Source of the DNA: Cruoricaptor ignavus
GTDB taxonomy: Bacteria; Bacteroidota; Bacteroidia; Flavobacteriales; Weeksellaceae
NCBI RefSeq assembly: GCF_900141665.1
Contig: NZ_FQYI01000001.1
Span: forward strand, 372,001-436,000
Length of the DNA: 64,000 nucleotides
Reading direction: 5' to 3'
The notes beneath the pieces are model-generated. The model was not told where the DNA came from. It saw nothing but the letters and a program-made list of their open reading frames with translations, and ran no database searches. Position numbers and translations under genes: made by a program. Shown here one piece after another: positions 61,269 to 64,000 of this stretch (within the stretch, counting starts at the first letter, position 1; each line of letters begins with the position of its first letter).

Positions 61269-62228
61269 CTATTTCAAAGTGAATGTAGCGATTACTGGGT
61301 AATGGTCGGAATAGCGCACGCCCCGGTCTACGCGGTAGGTACTCGGCAGTATATCTTTGGAACAGAAAAGATAATCGATGCGGATCGGGAATTTAAAATC
61401 GTGGAAGCTGGTGGCGCTGCCCCTGCCTGCCGCGGTAAACGCGTCCTGCAAGCCTTCCGAAAGCGAGTAATATTCAAAGGAGTTGGGTACGGAATTCAGG
61501 TCCCCACCTACGATCACGGGATAGGGCGAGTTTTTGATAAATTTTTGGATTACCGGCACCTGCTGCCCGTGAATGCGGAAGGTGGAGAGTAGCCTGTTTT
61601 TCAATACATCAGCTTTCATTTCATTTTTCGCTGCAGATTTCACTAAATCTTTATTGATATAAAACGGCTCGAGGTAGATGTTGATAAAACGGATTACTTT
61701 GCCGTTTATCTGTATGTCTGCCGCCATCGCCTGAGAATTTCCGTCGCCAATATCTATGAGCTGATAATTTACGATCCTGTGCGCAGAACTGATGGCAACC
61801 ACAGATTCCTGCTTCACGATAGGGTAGAAATTCTCCGCCGGCCTGTATTCCTGATGGAAAACCACATCCGCGTTGTGCCTCAGCAGGTAGTTCCGCACCG
61901 CATCATTCTCGCCGCCGTTATAATGACCGTTGTAGGTGATCACCTTAAAATTTCCGGGCTTTTTTTCAGGGGTAAAATTAATCCACCTCTGCGCCGGTTT
62001 GAAGAAAAAGATGCTCATCAGCAGAAAAAACACGGCACGCTTGCGCCGAAGTAGCAACCAAAGTACGGAGAGCGCGGCATGAATGCCAAGCAGCGCCGGG
62101 AACGCCAGCGAAAGGAGGTTGAGGTAAGGAAAAACGACCGGCGACACCACCGCATTCAGCCCGCAGAGCAGCAGGGCCACCACCACCAGAAGGTGGACGG
62201 CGGCAAGGAAAGTGCGCAGCAGATTCAT
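61269..62228 (-). CDS. Endonuclease/exonuclease/phosphatase-family membrane protein
   Basis: This 319-residue protein has about three N-terminal membrane helices and an EEP catalytic domain on the far side. VITYNGHYNGGEN and VVFHQEYRP hold the metal-binding Asn and Glu, VIVGGDLNSVPNS the Asp-Asn pair, and YSDHYPVIATF the catalytic His. Such proteins cut phosphodiesters in lipids or nucleic acid; the substrate is unknown. It overlaps the rhomboid gene by 4 bases. Confidence 0.85.
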   Translation of the reverse strand: MNLLRTFLAAVHLLVVVALLLCGLNAVVSPVVFPYLNLLSLAFPALLGIHAALSVLWLLLRRKRAVFFLLMSIFFFKPAQRWINFTPEKKPGNFKVITYNGHYNGGENDAVRNYLLRHNADVVFHQEYRPAENFYPIVKQESVVAISSAHRIVNYQLIDIGDGNSQAMAADIQINGKVIRFINIYLEPFYINKDLVKSAAKNEMKADVLKNRLLSTFRIHGQQVPVIQKFIKNSPYPVIVGGDLNSVPNSFEYYSLSEGLQDAFTAAGRGSATSFHDFKFPIRIDYLFCSKDILPSTYRVDRGVRYSDHYPVIATFTLK

Positions 62229-62872
62229 CGGTAGAAATTATGTTGAGGCAGTTTTTTCTTCCAACTCCGTGCCATTATCCAGCCTACGATTGCCCCGCCC
62301 ACATGCGCGAAGTGCGCTATCCCGCTCATCTGGTCGCTGAAGCCCAGGTATATGGATACTACGATGATGACCGGGAGGATGTACTTTGCGCTGATGGGTA
62401 CGGGTATGAACATAAAGTAGAGCTTGGTATCCGGGAAGAGAGTGGCGAAGGCGGTCATCACCCCAAAAATAGCCCCCGACGCCCCCACCATCGGCGTATT
62501 CAGTATGGCGTCGCCCTCGGCGGTGCCTGCTGCCTGGGTGTAGAGGTAATAATTCCATAAATTAAACAGCAGAAATGCCCCGAGACCGCTAAGGAAATAC
62601 AGCAGGGTAAACCTCTTCCCGCCAAAGAGCCGCTCTATGGTAGGCCCGAAACTCAGAAGCGTAAGCATATTGAAAAGGATGTGCATAAGGCTGCCGTGCA
62701 TAAACATATGCGTAATCACCTGCCACCACCGGAAATAAGGCGAGAGTGGAAAATAGGCTGGGAAGCTCACCAGAAGCTGGTGCGCCGCGGGCAGGGGGAG
62801 GTACATCAGTGCAAAGATCACTGAGTTGAGCAAAATAATATTTTTGGTGATGGGCGCCTGATTGTCAAACAT
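62225..62872 (-). CDS. Rhomboid-family intramembrane serine protease
   Basis: This 215-residue protein has six helices, a first loop with YFRWWQVITHMFMHGSLMHI, the catalytic Ser in MVGASGAIFGV and the His in FAHVGGAIVGW. It should cleave membrane proteins inside the bilayer. It is preceded by mutL and followed by the EEP gene, overlapping the latter by 4 bases. Confidence 0.92.
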   Translation of the reverse strand: MFDNQAPITKNIILLNSVIFALMYLPLPAAHQLLVSFPAYFPLSPYFRWWQVITHMFMHGSLMHILFNMLTLLSFGPTIERLFGGKRFTLLYFLSGLGAFLLFNLWNYYLYTQAAGTAEGDAILNTPMVGASGAIFGVMTAFATLFPDTKLYFMFIPVPISAKYILPVIIVVSIYLGFSDQMSGIAHFAHVGGAIVGWIMARSWKKKLPQHNFYR

Positions 62873-62876
62873 TGGT

Positions 62877-64000
62877 TTAAAATTTATTTTTTAATTCCTC
62901 CAAAGGTAATTCAATAAAACAAATTTTACCGTCCGGAGCGTAATTCGGGAAGCCCGCCGCGGAGAAATCCCTGAGCAGCTCCTGCATTTCATATTTATAA
63001 ATAAAATCAAACCGGGACTTGGAATGCAGCTTATTCCACTGATTGTCATAGAAATGCAAAAAATCCTCCTCGGTGTGATAGTCAAGGATTTCGAAGAGGT
63101 CCTCCAGTAATTTTATCACCTTCGTCTCCTTCAGCCCCTGCGGCACGGCGTCTATCCTCAGCACATTCTCCTGTGCCAGCGTCATATCAAAACCCAGCTG
63201 CGGGAGGTATTTCTTTATGGAGCGGAACTTTGTTTTCTCAATTTCATTGAGGTGATATTCCAGCGAGAATAGCAGCTGGTGGGCTTCCGTACTCCGCTTT
63301 TTTCCTTTATTTCGCTCCGCATTGATGACGCGGTGCATCCGCCCGGGGTCCAGCATCAGCGTCCCGCCCTGGCGGTTCAGCAGCCAGTAGCCGTTGGGCA
63401 GCCGCAGCAGGTCTTCGTCAAGGTTTTCATCATCCTCAAAAAGGTTGATTTTTGAAGGAGCAGTTTCGGCAGTGCCGTAGATTTCCTCCAGATTCAGCAT
63501 TTCCGGCCGGGTTTTGCCTTCCTGTTCAAAGGGATTGAAATTCCGGTCTACCGGGATGCCCGCCGGCTTGTTCAGCGAGCTGGCCGTAGCGTTTCCGAGA
63601 AAATTCTCAACCTGCGGATCTCGGTCAAAATCTAGCGACGGGGCAATGTTGTAGATGCCCAGAGCGCGCTTGACGGTGGAGCGGATGAGGGCGAAGATCA
63701 GGCTTTCATCCTCAAACTTTACCTCGGTTTTCTGCGGATGTATATTGACATCAATCCTGCCAGGATCCAGCTCCAGGTAGAGGAAAAACGACGGAATGTA
63801 GCCCGGCATCAGCAGCCCTTCGAATGCCTCCACCACTGCCTTGCTGAGGTACGGGCTGCGGAAATACCTGCCATTTACAAAGAAAAACTGCTCGCCGCGC
63901 ACCTTCTTTGCCCCCTCCGGCTTAGCCACATATCCGTGAAACCGTACCCAGTCCAGCTCCTCTTTTATGGGGATAAGGAGCGGCTGCAGCTTCCGCCCGA
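62877..64000 (-). CDS. mutL: DNA mismatch repair protein MutL, C-terminal part
   Basis: The frame is open to the end of the window, so the N-terminal ATPase lies beyond it. What is seen starts with the transducer domain: GEQFFFVNGRYFRSPYLSKA and RIDVNIHPQKTEVKFEDE. A linker and the C-terminal dimerisation domain follow, ending in ELPLEELKNKF. The place of the endonuclease motif DQHAx2Ex4E reads DPGRMHRVINAE (63315-63350), which lacks most metal ligands. It works with the MutS encoded at 29773. Confidence 0.9.
   Translation of the reverse strand, partial: GRKLQPLLIPIKEELDWVRFHGYVAKPEGAKKVRGEQFFFVNGRYFRSPYLSKAVVEAFEGLLMPGYIPSFFLYLELDPGRIDVNIHPQKTEVKFEDESLIFALIRSTVKRALGIYNIAPSLDFDRDPQVENFLGNATASSLNKPAGIPVDRNFNPFEQEGKTRPEMLNLEEIYGTAETAPSKINLFEDDENLDEDLLRLPNGYWLLNRQGGTLMLDPGRMHRVINAERNKGKKRSTEAHQLLFSLEYHLNEIEKTKFRSIKKYLPQLGFDMTLAQENVLRIDAVPQGLKETKVIKLLEDLFEILDYHTEEDFLHFYDNQWNKLHSKSRFDFIYKYEMQELLRDFSAAGFPNYAPDGKICFIELPLEELKNKF

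Follow-up and report, generated by a model that had tools for sequence, protein, structure and literature searches.

In the usual schemes, bacterial mismatch repair by MutS and MutL begins with a nick that is made either by MutH or by MutL itself. The mutL gene at the right-hand edge of the window (the whole stretch of 64,000 nucleotides analysed here) raises the question of how repair could begin when the genome offers neither a recognisable MutH nor a MutL with the usual nuclease site. The window holds the last 373 codons of this gene (62880-63998) and its stop codon, and the gene extends past the window's edge; read from the genome, the whole open reading frame (L002:4878-6638, minus strand) encodes 586 amino acids with no internal stop. 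Its product scores above the Pfam cut-offs for HATPase_c_3, DNA_mis_repair (S5-type) and MutL_C and carries the GHKL ATPase motifs LLENAIDA, DNGIGM and GFRGEAL, which places it in the MutL family. The parts that concern the nuclease are these:

62877..64000, minus strand: C-terminal two thirds of mutL with its stop codon, identified by Pfam; the remainder lies beyond the window
62880..63410, minus strand: MutL C-terminal domain (residues 410-586), with a MutL fold and no nuclease site as judged from an AlphaFold model and structure matches
63315..63350, minus strand: DPGRMHRVINAE (residues 430-441) in place of DQHAx2Ex4E, from alignments and a profile
63015..63023, minus strand: SKS in place of ACR, from the bases and an alignment
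62922..62939, minus strand: APDGKI in place of CPHGRP, from the bases and alignments

The initial annotation had reported that the endonuclease motif appears to be missing at 63315-63350 and that no CPHGRP-type segment is seen near the C-terminus. Its coordinates are exact and both observations hold, APDGKI occupying the latter position. Alignments place DPGRMHRVINAE on the DQHAx2Ex4E columns of other MutLs, and a profile built from 56 C-terminal domains of related proteins pairs this helix with IDQHAAQERIKYE in B. subtilis MutL and IDMHAAAERVNYE in N. gonorrhoeae MutL (E about 2e-23 against these two domains). It was through this profile that the C-terminal domains in the PDB were reached, the search with the single window protein having returned N-terminal MutL domains only. 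The annotation had allowed for the motif lying elsewhere in the protein or in a second MutL; alignments with relatives place it nowhere else, and the genome (2.23 Mb, 99.98% complete) encodes a single MutL. Under our assumption as to which motif letters are the metal ligands, the five ligand positions of the window protein are occupied by Gly, Arg, Lys, Ala and Asp, and these positions vary widely across the class. The His, first Glu and Cys/His positions of the site are missing in 16 of 16 Chryseobacterium-group relatives, in an alignment that includes the best 80 of 589 relatives; this shared loss and the intact reading frame led us to reject chance or assembly error as its cause. DQHAx2Ex4E, ACR and CPHGRP are described in the available text of one study as metal-binding motifs common to MutL endonucleases, and the same text reports that in A. 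aeolicus MutL replacement of the catalytic Arg of CPHGRP by Lys alone leaves weak activity (PMC10366529). A Lys stands at this place in the window protein. Judged from its residues, the window MutL almost certainly has no canonical nuclease site, and because a metal-dependent endonuclease site has been lost it is very likely unable to nick DNA in the way that B. subtilis or PMS2-type MutLs do.

The domain that carried this site persists. An AlphaFold model (mean pLDDT 88.4, pTM 0.77) predicts that the MutL C-terminal fold is kept, and the top matches to the model among solved structures, by Foldseek and VIA-align, are nuclease MutL domains, with 3ncv aligning at Z 14.4 (rmsd 4.4 Å over 175 residues), 3gab at Z 14.1 (4.1 Å, 172 residues) and E. 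coli MutL (1x9z) at Z 12.4 (4.3 Å, 163 residues). Comparison of close relatives shows it to be under purifying selection: five of eight Chryseobacterium-group pairs gave a C-terminal dN/dS value, all between 0.005 and 0.034, with two of these values resting on dS above 2 and with synonymous saturation in the other three pairs, the window protein and L004 among them. In the same set the N-terminal dN/dS lay between 0.013 and 0.030 in seven pairs, one pair being saturated. Within the Chryseobacterium group 40 of 177 C-terminal columns are invariant as against 175 of 330 N-terminal columns, so the C-terminal domain is the faster evolving of the two.

The initial annotation had described the absence of the site in this protein. 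The loss is real, but in our sample it is nearly class-wide rather than peculiar to the window MutL. A PF01119 search over 296 phylum genomes and 149 class genomes detected MutL in 295 and 147 of them, respectively; of the 295 in the phylum sample, 294 gave a single match and the remaining one (G065) gave two. We aligned the window protein with the best 80 of 589 relatives found in a scan of genomes (L004-L083) and with 134 fetched MutL genes, which combine best-scoring loci with places picked for wider family coverage and are thus a sample and no census. A site was scored as complete when D, H and E, the Cys of ACR and the Cys and His of CPH were all present. By this measure it is complete in 0 of 18 family members (the window protein counted, and the best 80 of 589 relatives included in the set), and in the order in 0 of 5 members from the phylum and class samples and 0 of 64 among the best 80 of 589 relatives, or 0 of 87 for family and order together. 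One order member, L060, has a partial site. Three of 84 proteins from the rest of the class are complete, all with the family code f82 (L141, L142 and L148). In the rest of the phylum the figure is 27 of 44; a further 14 of the 44 lack the Cys of ACR together with the Cys and His of CPH, and three are partial. We infer from the Flavobacteriales among the relatives that the sampled class is Bacteroidia; on this evidence nearly all of the class very probably share the loss. The motif letters suggest that the site decayed stepwise: many class members keep DQxxAHE and have lost ACR and CPHGRP, Flavobacteriales mostly read (D/N/H)QxxAH(Q/T/E)RxLYE, and the Chryseobacterium group mostly reads D(L/P)GRMHR.

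How old the loss is, and how often it occurred, was approached with two trees of the N-terminal domain. The first, with 149 rows and a simple model, required at least six changes of site state, gave f82 the sister position at a weak support value (34) and put the long-branched class member L180 outside the class. The second, with 107 rows under the default mixture model, recovered the class as one clade (SH-aLRT 96) with f82 sister to 69 nuclease-dead class members (support 81), and required at least three changes of state. This second tree omits 28 rows from the class and the phylum that were long-branched or nearly duplicated others, among them L180, L118, L127 and L096, all of which lack the site, and the lower number of changes is due in part to these omissions. 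The simplest reading, which the trees suggest, is one old loss in the class after f82 had branched off, though f82 may instead have regained the site or received it by transfer. Two groups of the phylum outside the class, one of L092, L214 and L215 and a further one of L095, L112, L115, L124, L126, L129 and L213, seem to have lost it in separate events.

A second contact of the C-terminal domain, that with the clamp, can be followed through the same alignment:

63267..63281, minus strand: HQLLF, what is left of a clamp-binding motif that most relatives have as QxxLF, from motif comparison

Here Leu-Leu-Phe is retained and the first Gln is gone. A stricter pattern, used at the outset, matched 100 of the 150 class members that are nuclease-dead and do not belong to the Chryseobacterium group; after inspection of the failures it was widened to Qxx[LMI][FY]. 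In this form it is present in all 44 proteins from outside the class, in 151 of 154 other class members and in seven of 17 from the Chryseobacterium group (with the best 80 of 589 relatives included); in the ten in which it is broken, it is mostly the first Gln that has been lost. These counts fit a putative clamp contact that in most of the class has persisted beyond the loss of the nuclease and that is now weakening in the Chryseobacterium group, where active-site helix and clamp motif alike have decayed further.

If MutL does not cut, a separate enzyme might. The initial annotation did not expect MutH here and left open how strands are nicked, and our searches agree with it on both counts: with one MutL, the genome has no match to MutH (PF02976; the E. 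coli control was positive) and none to NucS (PF01939; seven of 14 control genomes were positive). Among 423 distinct genomes (296 and 149, with 22 shared), 11 gave MutH-family matches, four in the larger set and seven in the smaller. These looked like counter-evidence and proved to be of another kind, since of the ten proteins scanned nine score above the Sau3AI cut-off and none reaches that of MutH, which makes these nine Sau3AI-type restriction enzymes; the tenth, L231 (213 residues), is above no cut-off. The eleventh match, in G341, lies outside the scanned ten, falls below the Pfam cut-off (E 3.4e-4) and contains in-frame stops. Two adjoining open reading frames that were scanned encode cytosine methylases. 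The Sau3AI-type enzymes (L134-L137 and L226-L230) occur in scattered genomes, and the Pfam MutH model alone would misname them MutH.

Other repair genes are in place. MutS is found in 292 of 296 genomes, the window's own included, and the four without it all lie outside the class. The window's genome also has two UvrD-family helicase matches and one small Smr protein. On contig C19 the one open reading frame for a D12-class methylase, the candidate in this genome for a Dam-type GATC methylase like that of E. coli-type repair, is followed by one of 259 residues (L252:973-2962), and the two may instead form a restriction-modification pair.

The genes that follow mutL are a more local place to look for a nuclease:

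61269-62872 of the window: genes for rhomboid proteases and for an EEP-family protein after mutL, from gene-row comparison

A rhomboid gene stands in the mutL row at all 80 of the best 80 of 589 relatives, and an EEP gene at 74 of these 80 (15 of 15 and 59 of 65). Across the class a rhomboid was found near mutL at 62 of 84 loci, and outside it at 0 of 44, in flanks of about 1 kb probed with the window's rhomboid, so that distant ones may have been missed; the downstream DNA of the f82 loci L141, L142 and L148, one stretch of which is short, contained none. As for the EEP protein, a script called between two and eight overlapping hydrophobic stretches, a noisy result, and on our own reading of the sequence it would cross the membrane with about three helices and have a domain on the non-cytoplasmic side. 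We regard it as the one physical lead to the missing nickase, and as a weak one: it lies near mutL at just six of 20 class loci, and its nuclease domain would sit behind membrane helices.

The best reading of these data, to which we give a probability of about one half, is that MutL has become a matchmaker that does not cut, and that repair proceeds from strand breaks that already exist, without a dedicated nick. In this scheme mismatch repair would continue, and MutL, driven by ATP, would bring together MutS, the clamp and a UvrD-type helicase. Breaks already present in the DNA, such as the ends of Okazaki fragments, the nicks of ribonucleotide excision and the 3' ends of leading strands, would give the helicase its starting points, and therefore no dedicated nicking enzyme would be needed. 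There is a precedent in E. coli, whose repair can do without MutH when the DNA already carries a nick. A second line of support comes from Elizabethkingia. According to the available text of a report on an E. anophelis outbreak, an isolate with a mutS mutation is a hypermutator whose mutation spectrum departs from that of other isolates as expected of mutS loss (PMC5458099). The MutL of Elizabethkingia miricola (L012) lacks the nuclease site. From these two observations, a genus with a site-less MutL appears to have functioning MutS-dependent repair, and the hypermutator suggests that mismatch repair works in the family; the report concerns mutS and not mutL. Against repair from existing breaks stand the three f82 members of the class and the 27 of 44 sampled MutLs outside it that have kept the nuclease, and against a clamp-guided scheme in the Chryseobacterium group in particular stands the weaker clamp motif there. 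The Lys at the catalytic Arg position, which as a lone replacement leaves A. aeolicus MutL weakly active, also weighs against this reading, and a separate nickase would give the same picture in these data.

The main rival supposes that an unrecognised endonuclease of another family is recruited and activated by MutS and the non-cutting MutL. A MutL that has lost its site and is still kept under selection is what one sees in the E. coli MutL-MutH scheme, and the failure to find either of the known mismatch-repair nickases searched for in the genome leaves room for such an enzyme, for which the EEP gene, with its nuclease fold and its frequent place in the mutL row of the best 80 of 589 relatives, and the small Smr protein could be put forward. 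However, no candidate tracks the loss across the class, and the EEP protein suffers from the patchy class-wide occurrence and the apparent membrane topology described above. We hold a separate nickase to be possible and on balance rather unlikely. MutL might instead have left the usual repair pathway, with MutS working through other partners and MutL, for example, limiting recombination. The further decay of active-site helix and clamp motif in the Chryseobacterium group would suit such a change of task, as would the fact that the hypermutator described in the accessible portion of PMC5458099 is a mutS mutant; yet MutL and MutS are both retained in nearly all sampled genomes, and the ATPase motifs and the C-terminal domain are conserved, which makes a departure of this kind quite improbable. 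Lastly, the C-terminal domain could still cut DNA through a metal site rebuilt from other residues. Asp430, Asp544 and Cys573, invariant in 16 Chryseobacterium-group sequences, and the Lys at the catalytic Arg position could be enlisted for this, but the substitutions at the ligand positions of the window protein, and their wide variation across the class, leave a rebuilt site very unlikely.

For the class as a whole, we think it likely that nearly all members (of what we take to be Bacteroidia, with at least one early branch excepted) combine an old loss of the MutL nuclease with the absence of MutH and repair mismatches by a third route, either free of incision through existing breaks or by way of an unrecognised nickase. 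Among the papers listed by our literature search there was none on a nuclease-dead MutL in Bacteroidetes; subscription papers were outside its scope, and the loss may have been published before. Banasik and Sachadyn are said to have surveyed MutL motifs in 2014. A review states, in its available text, that the motif is present in all MutL homologues except those of some MutH-bearing gammaproteobacteria (PMC3848065); the site counts contradict this for nearly the whole sampled class. If no dedicated nick is needed, these bacteria would lay strand choice open to study in its simplest form; if an unrecognised nickase is used, bacteria that are very common would have a core repair enzyme still to be discovered.

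The window MutL can be set beside three known systems. It resembles the MutL endonucleases of B. subtilis and N. gonorrhoeae (3gab, 3kdk and 3ncv) in the modelled fold of its C-terminal domain (Z 13.9-14.4, rmsd 4.1-4.4 Å over 171-175 residues), and organisms of this type are described, in the parts of the literature available to us, as likewise without MutH. It differs from these enzymes in that DQHAx2Ex4E, ACR and CPHGRP are all missing. With E. coli MutL (1x9z), which we take to be without the nuclease motif, it shares both the C-terminal fold and the want of a nuclease site, whereas E. coli has MutH and here neither the window's genome nor any scanned match from the class or phylum samples provides a protein at the MutH cut-off. 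NucS/EndoMS repair, as presented in the accessible text of PMC5290159, offers the likeness of a prokaryotic mismatch repair that departs from textbook schemes; the window's genome, unlike that system, has no NucS match and retains both MutS and MutL.
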